A stretch of 64,000 bases of DNA from Tangfeifania diversioriginum (GTDB lineage Bacteria > Bacteroidota > Bacteroidia > Bacteroidales > Prolixibacteraceae): contig CAMCBW010000013.1 of the NCBI GenBank assembly GCA_945873105.1, positions 1 through 64,000 of the forward strand, given 5' to 3'. Positions 57,150-63,662 of this stretch are shown here, piece by piece. Both the position numbers and the translations under genes were made by a program. Below the pieces are notes generated by a model. That model saw nothing but the letters and a program-made list of their open reading frames with translations, searched no databases and was not told the origin of the DNA. Every line of letters starts with the position of its first letter. The stretch's first letter is position 1.

Positions 57150-57163
57150 AATGTTTTTTTTTA

Positions 57164-57281
57164 AATCCCGTTAGGGATTACAGGTGGGTAGAAAACCGGA
57201 CAAGAGAGAAATATCGTCCCATCCGGGACGAAATATTTAATCCATCAGCCATTTCTACCCACCTTAAGTGCCTACGGCACT
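57164..57281. repeat. Multi-hairpin structured element, copy 1
   Basis: AATCCC/GGGATT hairpin; 13 bp stem AGGTGGGTAGAAA (57182-57194)/TTTCTACCCACCT (57252-57264); TCGTCCC/GGGACGA inner hairpin; AGTGCC/GGCACT tail hairpin. Confidence 0.88.
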
Positions 57282-57337
57282 GTAAAAGCCAATATTTGAG
57301 TGTTGTATTTAACCATGAATCGTATAAAAAGTAGTCC

Positions 57338-58264
57338 ATGACCTATGTCGGCATCCAGACACAAATCAGGCGGAACAACTTCAACAGCATCCTCCTGATG
57401 ATCGCATTCCCGGTCGTTTTGCTGGGGATGGTCTACTCCTTCCTCTTTTTCACCCAAAGAGAGACAGAGGCACAGGTGGTGAATGAAACCTTCGTCAGTA
57501 TCGTGCCATTTGTGATCATCGCTACCACCATCTGGTTCCTGATTGCCTGGCTGATGCACAACTCCCTGATCAGGATGGCCACCGGATCGAAACCCCTGGA
57601 AAGGATGACCAACAAACGGGTTTACAACCTGGTCGAAAACCTTTGCATCTCAAAGGGGATGAAAATGCCGAAAATTTACCTCATCGAGGACGACTCACTC
57701 AACGCCTTTGCCAGTGGCATCAGTGAAAGCAGTTTTTCTGTGACCCTTTCCCGGGGCATCATCAACAAACTGGAGGATGACGAGCTCGAAGGAGTAATCG
57801 CCCACGAACTCTCCCACATCCGCAACCGGGATGTCAGACTGATGGTCGTCTCGATCATCTTCGTCGGCATCTTTGCCTTTATCGCCGAAGCATCCTTGAG
57901 AAGCCTGAGATTCGGTGCCATGTCTAGAGGGAAAAAGGATACAGGGGCAGCCATTCTGGTGGCCATCGTCATATCCGCCATTTGCTACCTGATCGCACTC
58001 TTGCTCCGCTTCGGGATCTCCCGGTCACGGGAATACATGGCCGATGCCGGAGCCGCCGAAATGACCAGGAAACCCTACGCCCTGGCCAACGCCCTGCGGA
58101 AAATAAGCCGGGATCCGCTCATCGAAGCGGTCGAAAACCGCGATGTTGCCCAGTTATTCATCGAAAACCCGCAACCGGAGGAGAAAAAATTCTCCCTTGG
58201 CAACCTCTTTGCCACCCATCCGCCCATCCAGAAAAGAATTGAACTGCTGGACCAGTTCGCATGA
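57338..58264 (+). CDS. M48 family metallopeptidase (HtpX-like)
   Basis: GVIAHELSHIRNRDVRLM HExxH motif; TM segments; FATHPPIQKRIELL. Confidence 0.94.
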   Translation: MTYVGIQTQIRRNNFNSILLMIAFPVVLLGMVYSFLFFTQRETEAQVVNETFVSIVPFVIIATTIWFLIAWLMHNSLIRMATGSKPLERMTNKRVYNLVENLCISKGMKMPKIYLIEDDSLNAFASGISESSFSVTLSRGIINKLEDDELEGVIAHELSHIRNRDVRLMVVSIIFVGIFAFIAEASLRSLRFGAMSRGKKDTGAAILVAIVISAICYLIALLLRFGISRSREYMADAGAAEMTRKPYALANALRKISRDPLIEAVENRDVAQLFIENPQPEEKKFSLGNLFATHPPIQKRIELLDQFA

Positions 58265-58365
58265 AGAAAAATTTCTGAATCAGGATTAAAGGATTAAAGG
58301 ATTTACAGGATTGGGTATTGTTGAAAATTTACGATTACATACAACTCAAAATCATTGATCAAATA

Positions 58366-59547
58366 ATGAAGAATTTTTACTTGCTGCTTATTTGCCTGAT
58401 CTGTTTGTCCAATGTTTCGATTGGTAAATCTTACAAGGTATCGACCCCGGAAGCGTTTCAGAATGCCGCAGCAAAGGCAAGAACAGGGGACCAAATCATC
58501 ATTGCCAACGGCAGCTACATTGGCTGGGCAATTACTGCCGAAATCCAGGGGACCACCGACCATCCGGTAATTATACGGGCAGAAACAACCGGGAAGGTCG
58601 TCTTTACTGGAGATGTAACCAAACCGGTTTTTCTGTTGACAGGAAGTTATACTGAAATTTCGGGGCTCCACTTTTCGGGATGCATTGTCTCCAAAGCGGC
58701 GGGCAAGAGCGGGGTTTTGATAGAGCTTAAGGAGAGCCTCCACAGCCGGATAACTGATTGCACCTTTACCAACAATGCCGTAAAAGTGCAGTATATGCCA
58801 TTGGTTGTTATCTCCGGAAAGGGGGAATACAACAGGGTGGATCATTGCACATTCACCGGCAACATTGATAACCAGGAACTACAGGTGAAGATCACCAAAG
58901 AGACAGTTCCGCTCAACACAACCATCGACCACAACCTTTTCAACGACAAGCCCAAGGTATCCTGGAAAGGCACCAATGGCGGTGAGTGCGTCCAGGTTGG
59001 ACAGGATCCGATAATGCTCGGAACACAAAGTTCACATACCATCGTTCGAGACAACCGGTTTATCCACTGCAACGGCGAGGCGGAAGTGATCAGCAACAAG
59101 AGTTCTTCCAACAAATACCTCCACAACTATTTCGAAGATTGCCGTGGTGAGCTGGTCATGCGGGGCGGTCATGATTGTCTGGTCGATAGCAACACCGTCA
59201 AGGGTGGTTCCGGTGGTATCCGGATCAATGGCTCCGGCCATACCGTTACCAACAATACGCTGATCGGACTACCAACGGCTATCAGATTGATGTATGGAAT
59301 GTCCAAAGGAAAATCCGAAATTGGTTTTTATGTGGCTGCCGGCGACATCACGATCAAAAACAACTTCATCAACAAATGCACAACTGGCATTCTTATTGGC
59401 GACAGCAAAAACGCCGACTGGACCGGAAAATTCGACACCAACAGGTACCCTTCACGCACCATGCAGGATGTAGCCCCCTACAACAACACCATGGAAGGGA
59501 ACACCATCACGGAGACGGAGAAACCTTTAGTGCAAAACGAACAATAG
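58366..59547 (+). CDS. Polysaccharide lyase family 6-like (chondroitinase-B/alginate lyase type)
   Basis: FQNAAAKARTGDQIIIANGSYIGW; parallel beta-helix repeats; NEAEVISNKSS-like GEAEVISNKSSSNKYLHNYFEDCRGELVMRGGHDCLV. Confidence 0.88.
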   Translation: MKNFYLLLICLICLSNVSIGKSYKVSTPEAFQNAAAKARTGDQIIIANGSYIGWAITAEIQGTTDHPVIIRAETTGKVVFTGDVTKPVFLLTGSYTEISGLHFSGCIVSKAAGKSGVLIELKESLHSRITDCTFTNNAVKVQYMPLVVISGKGEYNRVDHCTFTGNIDNQELQVKITKETVPLNTTIDHNLFNDKPKVSWKGTNGGECVQVGQDPIMLGTQSSHTIVRDNRFIHCNGEAEVISNKSSSNKYLHNYFEDCRGELVMRGGHDCLVDSNTVKGGSGGIRINGSGHTVTNNTLIGLPTAIRLMYGMSKGKSEIGFYVAAGDITIKNNFINKCTTGILIGDSKNADWTGKFDTNRYPSRTMQDVAPYNNTMEGNTITETEKPLVQNEQ

Positions 59548-59616
59548 CATGACTCCAATACGGAACATTTAAACCTGCTTTTCGTTGAAACATATGTTCT
59601 CACAAAACTCATTAAA

Positions 59617-61044
59617 ATGAACTGGAAAACATACCTATCAGCGATACTTGTCGTGCTTGCCATCGTATTTCTCTTTGGCTTTGCACCAAAAGAGGCCAGC
59701 CCGGAATCGCATGTAGCTCCTGAACCATCAACAGCAGCCGCCAATTACCAGAAATATTGCGCCGGCTGCCATGGCGAAAAGCTTGAAAAATTTGCCGCAA
59801 AATCCTGGATGGACGAAAAGGGAACCGGCTCGGCAGTGAACTCCATCAAGAATGGAATTGCCGATATGGGAATGCCCTCCTTTCAAAAAACTTTTACCAG
59901 CGAAGAGATCGAGGCACTGGCAGCCTACGTCAAGAAAGGAATTCCAGCCGATCGGACCAGCTTGAAAGCTGCCACCAAATCAGGTGAAATCGTGGAGTCT
60001 GAATCCCAAAAATTTGTCGTCGATACAGTCGTTACCGGCTTAAACGTTCCGTGGGGACTGGCCTTCCTTCCCAACGGGGATCTCCTGATCACCGAACGGT
60101 CGGGCTCCCTGTACCGTTTCTCCAAGGGGAAATTGTCTGCTCCAATTGAGGGTTTGCCCAAGCTAGTTGCCAAGGGACAGGGCGGATTGATGGACATTTG
60201 CCTCCATCCCGACTACGGGAAGAATGGCTGGATCTATATCTCCTTCTCCTCCCCCAATGCTCAAAGCACAAAAGTCATCGCCAATACGGCCATCCTTCGC
60301 GCCAAACTTCAGGGCAACAAACTGGTCGACCAACAGGTGATCTTCAAGGGAACCCCTGAAACCGACAAGTCGCACCACTTTGGCAGTAAACTGGCCTTCG
60401 ACCGGCAGGGCCATCTCTACTTCGGCATCGGCGACCGCGGACAACATTTCGATTTCCCGCAAAAACTCGACAATACCAACGGCAAGATCCACCGGATCAA
60501 CGATGATGGTTCAATACCCACCGACAACCCATTTGCCGGCAAACAGGGAGCCATTGCCTCCATCTACAGCTACGGCCACAGGAATCCGCAGGGAACCTGC
60601 ATCCATCCCGTAACCGGCGAACTCTGGGTGACCGAACACGGTCCCCGCGGCGGTGATGAACTGAACCAGGTGCAACCGGGCCTTAACTATGGCTGGCCGG
60701 TCATCTGTTACGGCATCAACTACGATGGCACCATTCTCACCGAACTGACCGAGAAAGAGGGGATGGAACAACCGGTATCCTACTGGCTTCCCTCCATCGC
60801 CCCTTGCGGCATGACCTTCCTCCCCGGCGACAAATACAAGAAGTGGCGCAACAACCTCTTCGTGGGATCCCTGCGCTTCCAATACCTCGAAAGATTGGTC
60901 ATCAACGGCCATTCAGTTCAGCACCGCGAGAAACTGCTGGAGGGCATCGGCCGGGTACGCAATGTGGTGGTTAGTCCGGAAGGATACCTCTATGTCGCCG
61001 TCGAGAACCCGGGTAAAATTGTGAAGCTGATTCCAATCGACTAA
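59617..61044 (+). CDS. PQQ-dependent sugar dehydrogenase with N-terminal cytochrome c domain
   Basis: YQKYCAGCHGEKLEKF (CxxCH); LNVPWGLAFLPNGDLLITERSG; VTEHGPRGGDELNQVQPGLNYGWP. Confidence 0.93.
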   Translation: MNWKTYLSAILVVLAIVFLFGFAPKEASPESHVAPEPSTAAANYQKYCAGCHGEKLEKFAAKSWMDEKGTGSAVNSIKNGIADMGMPSFQKTFTSEEIEALAAYVKKGIPADRTSLKAATKSGEIVESESQKFVVDTVVTGLNVPWGLAFLPNGDLLITERSGSLYRFSKGKLSAPIEGLPKLVAKGQGGLMDICLHPDYGKNGWIYISFSSPNAQSTKVIANTAILRAKLQGNKLVDQQVIFKGTPETDKSHHFGSKLAFDRQGHLYFGIGDRGQHFDFPQKLDNTNGKIHRINDDGSIPTDNPFAGKQGAIASIYSYGHRNPQGTCIHPVTGELWVTEHGPRGGDELNQVQPGLNYGWPVICYGINYDGTILTELTEKEGMEQPVSYWLPSIAPCGMTFLPGDKYKKWRNNLFVGSLRFQYLERLVINGHSVQHREKLLEGIGRVRNVVVSPEGYLYVAVENPGKIVKLIPID

Positions 61045-61284
61045 GCAAGAAGCTGTTCTAAATTCTTACATAACTTGTCCCGATACTTCTGTAGAACGGA
61101 AATCGCTTGCGATTTTCCACCTCTGTGAACTCCGGTGTTTTCTGCCAAAGAATTATAATAGCGGAAATATTTAAATGCCTCAATGTTTCGAAAAAAAGAC
61201 ATTTATACTCTGTGTTATAAATTTCACTAATCAATAAGATATACAGCATAGTTACATGACTCACTCATTCGACACAATCTCAAA

Positions 61285-63369
61285 ATGAACCACTGTTGGG
61301 GGTTTCAGATGGTCACAAAAAGTGTCTCAATCAGGGCGCTTTTCATCGCGCTTTCACTCCTGGTTTTACAGGCAAATCTTTCGGGACAGGAAAACGCAAA
61401 TCCCCTGCCGGGAAGGTCAGATACCACCATTGTGCTGGGGGAAATTGCGGTGGAAGCGATCAAAATCAGTACCCCCCTGCGGAATGTACCCGGGAGTATC
61501 TCTGTCGTGACCGGAAAAGGCACTACCATCGGGGATGCCACCAATCTCGCCACCACGATCAACGCCCTGCCGGGAGTCGCCATGCAAGCCGGGAACTATG
61601 CCACCAGCAGGATTGTCATCCGGGGCATGGGCAGCCGAACCCCATACAACACCAACCGGATCAAGTCCTACCTGAATGAGATCCCATTGACCGGCTCCGA
61701 TGGGGTATCTACCCCAGAAGAGATCGACCTTCACAGCCTGCAACGCATCGAGGTGGTGAAGGGTCCGGCAGCTGCCCTCTTCGGTCCCGGACTGGGGGGC
61801 AGCCTCAACCTCTATACCCCGGATTACAACCAATACAAGCTGAAGGCAAACGCACAATATGGCTCCTGGAATACATTGCAGGCCCATCTTTCAGCCTCAA
61901 CACAAGGGGAAACTTTGAGTGCCTGGGGAAGTGTGAGCCACCTTCAATCGGATGGATTCAGGGAGAATGGATCCTACCAAAGAACCGCCGTAATGTCTAC
62001 TGCACAGTGGAAGCGGAAAGGCTGGACAGTTGATGCATTGATCCTGCTGACCAGCCTGAATGCAGGCATTCCCAGCTCTTTGGGGAAGACCCTGTTTGAG
62101 GAGAGGCCCGAAGCTGCGGCTCCCACCTGGAAAGCGGTAAAGGGATACAAGGAGTCGGAGAAGATCCGGGCAGGCATCACGGTAGCCACCAAAATCAATA
62201 CCCGGCTCGACAACCTCTTTACCGTTTTTGGCATTGGCAACGACAGCTACGAACGACGCCCCTTCAACAACCTTGACGACAACTCCCTGGGATATGGCTT
62301 CCGGAACAAATTGAGTTACCGCACTGCAAAAACGGAATGGATTGCAGGCGGTGAATTTGTGGCGGATCGCTACGATTGGCGACTGGACAAGGAGGAGCAA
62401 CTCCTGAACAAGAACAGTGAACGACGGAATCATTTCAACCTTTACGGCATGGTCTACTTCCGGCCCAATGGGAAACTCAACCTCACCCTCGCATCGGCAG
62501 TCGGGCAGACCAGCTACCGGCTCACCGATCACTTCGCCGCCAACGGGGATCAATCCGGCCAACGCAAATTCCCGCTCATCTTCTCTCCCCGGATTGGGAT
62601 CAACTATGCCATCAATGCGGAAGTAGCGCTTTATGGCTCTGCCGGACACGGCTACTCCCTTCCCTCCCCTGAGGAGACACTGTTGCCCGGCGGCGATGTC
62701 AATCCCAACCTGAAACCGGAGCAGGGAATGCAATACGAAACAGGCATCCGGCTGAACCTTTTCCACCAAACAGCCTGGCTTGATGGAACCCTCTACTGGA
62801 TTGAACTGAACAATTTACTGGTTACCAAAAGGGTGTCGGAGGATATTTTCACCGGCATCAATGCAGGCAAGACAAGGCACCAGGGATTTGAACTGTCCTT
62901 CCGGAACAGCTTCTTCCACTTCAGCCACTTCCCGGGCAAACTTGGTTCAATGCTGAGCTATTCCCTGTCCGTCAACAAGTTCATCGAGTTTACAGACGAT
63001 GGAAACAACTTCGATGGCAAGAACCTTCCGGGGATACCGAACCAAACGATACAGCACCAATTTGTCTGGAATCCAATGGAGCGTATCGAAGTTACAACCC
63101 AGCTCTACCTTGCCGGGGAACAGTACCTGGATGACCTGAATGCCGAAAAATACGAAGGCTACCTGCTGGCAAACCTCAGGCTATCGGCGGAAATCCTCAA
63201 AAGTACCACCACTGCACTGAAGGCCTTTGCAGGCATCAACAACCTGACAGACACCCATTATGCCTCCATGCTGATGGTCAATGCCAAAGGCTTTGGTGGC
63301 AGCGAACCGCGCTATTATTATCCTGGTTCGCCCAGGAATTTCTTTTTGGGAATACAATATAGCTTCTGA
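61285..63369 (+). CDS. TonB-dependent receptor
   Basis: Plug domain RNVPGSISVVTG...RIVIRGMGSRTPYNTNRIK; VVKGPAAALFGPGLGGSLNLYT; C-terminal aromatic strand NFFLGIQYSF. Confidence 0.93.
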   Translation: MNHCWGFQMVTKSVSIRALFIALSLLVLQANLSGQENANPLPGRSDTTIVLGEIAVEAIKISTPLRNVPGSISVVTGKGTTIGDATNLATTINALPGVAMQAGNYATSRIVIRGMGSRTPYNTNRIKSYLNEIPLTGSDGVSTPEEIDLHSLQRIEVVKGPAAALFGPGLGGSLNLYTPDYNQYKLKANAQYGSWNTLQAHLSASTQGETLSAWGSVSHLQSDGFRENGSYQRTAVMSTAQWKRKGWTVDALILLTSLNAGIPSSLGKTLFEERPEAAAPTWKAVKGYKESEKIRAGITVATKINTRLDNLFTVFGIGNDSYERRPFNNLDDNSLGYGFRNKLSYRTAKTEWIAGGEFVADRYDWRLDKEEQLLNKNSERRNHFNLYGMVYFRPNGKLNLTLASAVGQTSYRLTDHFAANGDQSGQRKFPLIFSPRIGINYAINAEVALYGSAGHGYSLPSPEETLLPGGDVNPNLKPEQGMQYETGIRLNLFHQTAWLDGTLYWIELNNLLVTKRVSEDIFTGINAGKTRHQGFELSFRNSFFHFSHFPGKLGSMLSYSLSVNKFIEFTDDGNNFDGKNLPGIPNQTIQHQFVWNPMERIEVTTQLYLAGEQYLDDLNAEKYEGYLLANLRLSAEILKSTTTALKAFAGINNLTDTHYASMLMVNAKGFGGSEPRYYYPGSPRNFFLGIQYSF

Positions 63370-63393
63370 AATGCTGATTAAATCTAATTTTAT

Positions 63394-63513
63394 AATCCCG
63401 TTAGGGATTTTATGTGGGTAGAATATAGATGAATTGTGTTTATCTCGTCCCGTACGGGACGAAATGGACTTTCAATCAAATGCTTTCTACCCACATATTA
63501 TACCTCCGGTATA
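63394..63513. repeat. Multi-hairpin structured element, copy 2
   Basis: AATCCC/GGGATT; TATGTGGGTAGAA/TTCTACCCACATA; TCGTCCC/GGGACGA; TATACC/GGTATA. Confidence 0.88.
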
Positions 63514-63662
63514 TTGATTTTCAAAGTTTAAACAGCTTCTAACTTAATTTCAATAAATTGGCATTTAGAAAACAACCCTCAATATTAATGTAGTCTATAC
63601 AAGGTATCACACAGATTTCCAGTTATATAATTTCTTTTTCCGTCCAATAAAAACTCAACACC

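Follow-up and report, generated by a model that had tools for sequence, protein, structure and literature searches.

The closest described relatives of the repeats reported here are the REPtrons, that is, repetitive extragenic palindromes (REP), bacterial interspersed mosaic elements (BIME) and REPINs together with their REP-associated tyrosine transposases (RAYT) (PMC2817692, PMC3116915, PMC6006769, PMC8266576). They comprise dispersed intergenic palindromes and inverted pairs of these; each family goes with a particular HUH-Y1 tnpA gene of low copy number, on whose flanks copies cluster, and a short TAG-containing motif lies beside the hairpin. The same traits are found for two elements of contig CAMCBW010000013.1 of Tangfeifania diversioriginum (copy 1 at 57164–57281 and copy 2 at 63394–63513 of the window, i.e. 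the whole analysed stretch of 64,000 nt) and for their relatives. Unlike the REPtrons, which employ class 2 enzymes (TnpA_REP, Y..NP motif) and carry GT[AG]G at the 5' foot of the hairpin, the present repeats are associated with subclass 1.2 enzymes (YxxxQxxHH) and carry RTAG 8–10 nt 3' of the hairpin. Moreover, a complete cassette comprises three hairpins plus a long stem, and copies are counted in tens, not hundreds.

TnpA_Y1 subclass 1.2 has been described (PMC6006769) as a low-copy group from Bacteroidetes with a Y1_Tnp domain, YxxxQxxHH, DH[IV]H and WQ motifs and a length of ~150 aa, and the enzymes considered here share these features. The entry for REPs of this subclass in Table 1 of that work (Quentin et al. 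2018) is "no", whereas most such genes examined here adjoin hairpin-RTAG repeats. The automatic REP search used there expected the motif on the 5' side, at the hairpin foot, and would therefore miss a hairpin followed by RTAG. Our literature search, with most subscription papers outside its reach, found no account of REPs for subclass 1.2; a REP/BIME-type partner repeat for this transposase class, with a new geometry, looks like a new finding. Since relatives of the repeat flank genes of single-strand DNA transposases that have received little study, it resembles such a partner. We consider that the window repeats are non-autonomous mobile DNA and that their core is the cognate repeat of a subclass 1.2 TnpA_Y1, captured in this genus by a miniature inverted-repeat transposable element (MITE) with terminal inverted repeats (TIRs), and assign this reading a probability of roughly 0.75.

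Structure and dispersal of the repeat

Both copies are built on one plan: hairpin A, a 13-bp long stem with GGGTAG/CTACCC enclosing the central hairpin C, and the tail hairpin B. Each arm lies exactly where the sequence-only reading of this DNA had placed it:

57150–57337, + strand: insert holding copy 1, missing in six congeners (lemA and the M48-peptidase gene nearly adjacent in G001, G002, G004, G005, G006, G007)
57164–57179, + strand: copy 1, hairpin A, AATCCC-GTTA-GGGATT
57182–57194, + strand: copy 1, 5' arm of the long stem, AGGTGGGTAGAAA, containing the GTAG motif ~9 nt 3' of hairpin A
57214–57231, + strand: copy 1, central (inner) hairpin C, TCGTCCC-ATCC-GGGACGA
57252–57264, + strand: copy 1, 3' arm of the long stem, TTTCTACCCACCT, with the GTAG motif on the - strand
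57267–57281, + strand: copy 1, tail hairpin B, AGTGCC-TAC-GGCACT
63370–63385, + strand: copy 2, left TIR, AATGCTGATTAAATCT, degenerate (5 mismatches to the family TIR GAGACTGTTTAAATTT)
63394–63409, + strand: copy 2, hairpin A, AATCCC-GTTA-GGGATT
63411–63423, + strand: copy 2, 5' arm of the long stem, TATGTGGGTAGAA
63445–63462, + strand: copy 2, central (inner) hairpin C, TCGTCCC-GTAC-GGGACGA
63485–63497, + strand: copy 2, 3' arm of the long stem, TTCTACCCACATA
63499–63513, + strand: copy 2, tail hairpin B, TATACC-TCC-GGTATA
63524–63539, + strand: copy 2, right TIR, AAGTTTAAACAGCTTC (3 mismatches to the family TIR)

The compensatory changes between the copies are real, both in the long stem (AGGTGGG/CCCACCT versus ATGTGGG/CCCACAT) and in the tail hairpin (AGTGCC/GGCACT versus TATACC/GGTATA).

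The element had been regarded as present in two copies, which proved wrong. A covariance model built solely from copies in the source genome recovers, at E<1e-6, 35 separate loci from the 5.36 Mb draft, most of which appear once per strand owing to the near symmetry of the unit. The true copy number may be slightly lower than 35, as five of the loci lie at contig ends and share one sequence. A DNA search with the element yields 37 matches, and the exact long-stem pattern also has 37 over the two strands (~19 loci), with none for the reversed control pattern. The copies are dispersed on both strands and in either orientation; none of the 20 examined lies inside a predicted gene, although two overlap the end of an open reading frame by ~7 bp. 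The window elements are two copies of a dispersed mobile DNA repeat and not a two-copy RNA.

Pair counting was done on an alignment of 20 copies, all from the source genome. In this alignment 94.4% of cells pair, and double-sided changes occur in 29 cells against a shuffled mean of 9.0. The covariation score (0.126 versus 0.055 in shuffles) is reached by 0 of 500 shuffles, these statistics being inflated by the relatedness of the copies, as the tool itself warns. A MAFFT alignment of cross-genus copies loses register at loops of 3 versus 4 nt, so pair counts were restricted to the 20-copy alignment and cross-genus stems were scored element by element. Such scoring chooses arms by complementarity and is hence biased; for the long stem, where a shuffle control was run, 9–12 of 12 are observed as compared with mostly 7–8 in shuffles. 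The plan is kept across genera while nearly all stem sequences are replaced, which bears out the earlier proposal of selection on folded structure over primary sequence. None of the outcomes named beforehand as refuting it turned up: the genome holds more copies, covariation is above that of the controls, and Rfam, the database searched, has no match.

That proposal had left open whether the structure is RNA or DNA. The structural part stands; the wider evidence speaks for a mobile DNA repeat and not for RNA. A structured RNA 3' of genes (a cis-regulatory element, an mRNA stabiliser or a small RNA) selected at the RNA level would agree with the covariation, with the strong RNA folding (z = -5.8 to -8.7 versus shuffles) and with the neighbouring genes of 20 copies, of which 16 pairs are co-oriented, where transcription is expected, 3 convergent and 1 divergent. 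However, folding is equally strong on the two strands of both copies, also when they are folded as DNA (z = -6.4 to -8.6), so the strand does not decide between RNA and DNA, and the insertions take either orientation. The orthologous site of copy 1 is empty in six congeners. In line with the earlier failure to recognise a named family, Rfam has no match in the region at gathering and nothing credible at a relaxed E-value (best sub-threshold matches at E >= 0.79). Taken together, a selected RNA is highly improbable, while the copies may have a secondary effect at the RNA level, as known for REPs. The tail hairpin was also considered as a terminator and rejected, as no T-tract follows it and terminator-like sites occur no more often than by chance.

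Association with TnpA genes in Bacteroidota

The source genome contains six Y1_Tnp (PF01797) genes, all with intact HUH and YxxxQxxHH motifs. The TnpA encoded on contig C17 (L031:8763-9227, 154 aa) has DHIH, WQ and YIKDQELHH, and its gene has copies of the core lacking TIRs immediately on both sides; seven core copies lie within the first 9.4 kb of this contig. The solved structures nearest to this protein are IS200/IS605-type transposases, presumably the ISDra2 and IS608-type entries. YxxxQxxHH is also present in nearly all of its relatives that are flanked by repeats. Assigned by motif and not by the hidden Markov model and Markov clustering classes of the authors, these TnpAs appear to fit subclass 1.2 of PMC6006769. 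Hairpin repeats of their own sequence also adjoin no fewer than four of the remaining TnpA genes of the genome. Each of the loci L032, L033, L034 and L035 has its own unrelated hairpin family, e.g. tandem GCTCCGGAGGAGC-GATCTGTTTGTAG on contig C46.

When the covariance model was applied to TnpA loci of related genomes, matches adjoined TnpA not only in other genera but also in a different family of the same order; 70 kb of control loci from the source genome gave none. A wider sample comprised 80 loci selected purely for encoding a relative of the C17 TnpA (from Prolixibacteraceae, Saprospiraceae, Flavobacterium, Algoriphagus, Chitinophagaceae, Spirosoma and others). Matches at E<1e-3 occur in 34 of the 80 loci, and in 30 of them within 250 bp of the gene. 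Their density falls from 0.98/kb at 0–250 bp to 0.30 at 250–500 bp and 0.17 at 500–750 bp, and beyond 1250 bp there is none over ~235 kb. In one locus (L199) seven cassettes follow the TnpA gene directly in tandem, ~161 bp apart.

The sequence of the long stem differs between genomes (ATGTGGGTAGAA/TTCTACCCACAT in the source, ATGTTTATAGCA/TGCTATAAACAT in G029, ATGTTGTTAGAA/TTCTAACAATAT in G013), and the hairpins change to match. The dispersed palindromes with GTAG and CGTC letters recall the GTAG- and CGTC-tagged palindromic repeats (PMC3733652), but here CGTC forms part of the central-hairpin stem, where other genera have different letters, and GTAG is 3' of a hairpin. An additional hairpin is present within one spacer in L123 (G022), L130 (G019) and L132 (G036).

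A scan independent of the model took 109 subclass 1.2 genes and the hairpins lying no more than 450 bp from them. TAG follows a hairpin at offsets of 8, 9 and 10 nt in 48, 60 and 126 cases, respectively (234 in all), compared with ~5–17 at other offsets. The basic unit around these genes is a hairpin and, 8–10 nt later, TAG. At least one such unit is present at 87 of the 109 loci and at least two at 66, the corresponding numbers 1300–1750 bp away being 9 and 2; the density is 2.49/kb near the genes versus 0.13/kb far from them. On the TnpA tree, the distribution of GGTAG versus TATAG requires 3 changes, whereas shuffled labels require 11.3 on average and 7 at minimum. That the motif variant tracks the tree speaks for enzyme and repeat belonging together but is no proof of recognition.

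Cores of this kind could also be the ends of true IS200/IS605-type insertion sequences (IS), solitary copies being remnants of excised or deleted ones. Such a relation is suggested by the HUH-Y1 TnpA with its nearest structures, by the hairpins near the gene, which are known at IS200/IS605 ends (PMC6006769, PMC8266576), and by the possible occurrence of cores on both sides of tnpA. Nevertheless, the six TnpAs of the genome are pairwise 26–58% identical, and a near-identical tnpA in multiple copies, as well as defined ends, is missing. The flanking units are not a left and a right end but whole symmetrical cassettes, often in tandem as in L199, and repeats also occur alone. As subclass 1.2 does not share IS properties (PMC6006769) either, this origin of the cores is quite improbable, and a repeat cognate to TnpA is preferred.

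Insertion sites and terminal inverted repeats

Copy 1 is situated between the genes of a LemA family protein and an M48 peptidase, 188 bp (57150–57337) separating the stop codon from the ATG. In the six congeners listed above these genes are almost directly adjacent, and the comparison indicates that copy 1 is a recent insertion. The insert parts lemA from the peptidase gene, with a possible effect on their co-expression. In one congener (G005:C127) only some hundreds of bases separate the M48 gene from the gene downstream of copy 2, and ~5 kb of the window (about 58300–63660) appears to be absent.

A further copy (L084, G000:C89) lies within another dispersed palindromic repeat, CTTTTCCAAAG...GTTACGAGCGAAATTC...GGAAAAG. 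The relative of this host repeat in G002 (L278, G002:C79:26222-26286) is uninterrupted and represents a related empty site. More empty sites were sought with the joined flanks of TIR copies at four loci, but apart from the C89 case too little synteny with the congeners is left.

Inverted repeats of 16 bp, GARACTGTTTAAATTT, form the ends of many copies; these units mostly measure 169–171 bp in total, and TNA adjoins their ends. A clean TTA duplication is seen in L087, L088 and L098, the other copies being merely TNA-like. Copy 2 has the TIRs in degenerate form, and copy 1 has no clear TIR. The TIRs and TNA flanks suggest that the unit travels in this genome as a MITE of ~170 bp. Many copies, copy 2 included, were probably spread in this way, served by a DDE transposase, and for copy 2 the TIRs favour this route. 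No intact DDE transposase of an autonomous element bearing this TIR was found in the draft assembly, PF01609 being the sole Pfam family searched; the only DDE_Tnp_1 match in the genome (L080, G000:C15:16913-17368) is interrupted by a stop codon and has no matching TIR.

A second MITE family of ~250 bp (AGACTGTTTAAATTTATAACACAGAG...) is present in the same genome outside the window, often at contig ends (L050-L058, L062-L079, e.g. L052, - strand, 1515 to about 1260, and L064:1500-1757). Its TIR is the same but its interior differs, and L052 and L064 show a TCA duplication at their two ends.

These features raise the question whether the repeat is nothing but a common TIR MITE belonging to an IS5-like DDE element; its inner palindromes would then be of significance to the MITE alone, and the link to TnpA would be a coincidence or due to insertion near TnpA genes. 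The non-coding units do resemble TIR-bearing MITEs in the TIRs, constant length and TNA flanks of many copies, the TIR is shared with the second MITE family, and the movement of copy 2 may still be accounted for in this manner. Unlike in such MITEs, the interior is a conserved three-hairpin core which exists without TIRs elsewhere, beside TnpA genes on C17 and in other genera, and throughout Bacteroidota is concentrated in the 250 bp next to TnpA. Furthermore, these TIRs are found solely in copies from the source genus. For the core this explanation is largely refuted, and overall we regard it as unlikely.

Proposed TnpA-repeat system

In the preferred reading, with TnpA and the core as partners, the core consists of two inverted half-units, each a hairpin followed after ~9 nt by RTAG, paired as the long stem around the central hairpin. 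IS200/IS605 and TnpA_REP enzymes bind single-stranded hairpins, and a short guide motif determines where they cut (PMC8266576). By analogy, the TnpA would recognise the hairpin on single-stranded DNA and cut near the RTAG/CTAY motif, and the repeat may be mobilised by it. The need to remain a substrate would keep the palindromes and the motif under selection while the spacers drift, and selection of this kind would give a pattern resembling RNA covariation. In the source genus the core would have been captured secondarily between the 16-bp TIRs with TNA flanks.

Several observations weigh against this reading. As many as 49 of the 80 TnpA loci have no match to the covariance model within 500 bp, though many of them have simpler hairpin-TAG units. 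Two incomplete genomes (G019 and G022) contain elements but no detected PF01797 gene. The most numerous copies in the source genome have DDE-type TIRs, which TnpA would not explain. Finally, the agreement between motif and tree would also arise if entire loci were passed on as units, so that recognition is not proven by it.

It is somewhat more probable than its opposite that subclass 1.2 TnpA_Y1 enzymes and a distinct class of repeats, made up of a hairpin, 8–10 nt and RTAG, form a family of single-strand transposition systems throughout Bacteroidota, parallel to RAYT/REP, with the cassette captured by a DDE TIR MITE in one genus. REP/RAYT-like systems would then extend to a separate HUH branch, in which hairpin-RTAG repeats often combine to form symmetrical three-hairpin cassettes and the motif lies on the opposite side of the hairpin from that of REP, and a single repeat may be used by two transposition chemistries that are unrelated. 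The published description of subclass 1.2 enzymes includes no REPs and, in general, no typical IS ends, so that no substrate had been assigned to them; the candidate substrate (a hairpin with RTAG 8–10 nt downstream and variants following the tree) makes their activity directly testable. It would also account for a class of structured intergenic sequences of Bacteroidota that might pass for structured RNAs in searches based on covariation.

Proteins closely related to the TnpA are also encoded in assemblies labelled as other phyla, namely L200 (Pirellulaceae), L251 (Opitutales) and L264 (Verrucomicrobia), which reflects either horizontal transfer or misbinning.

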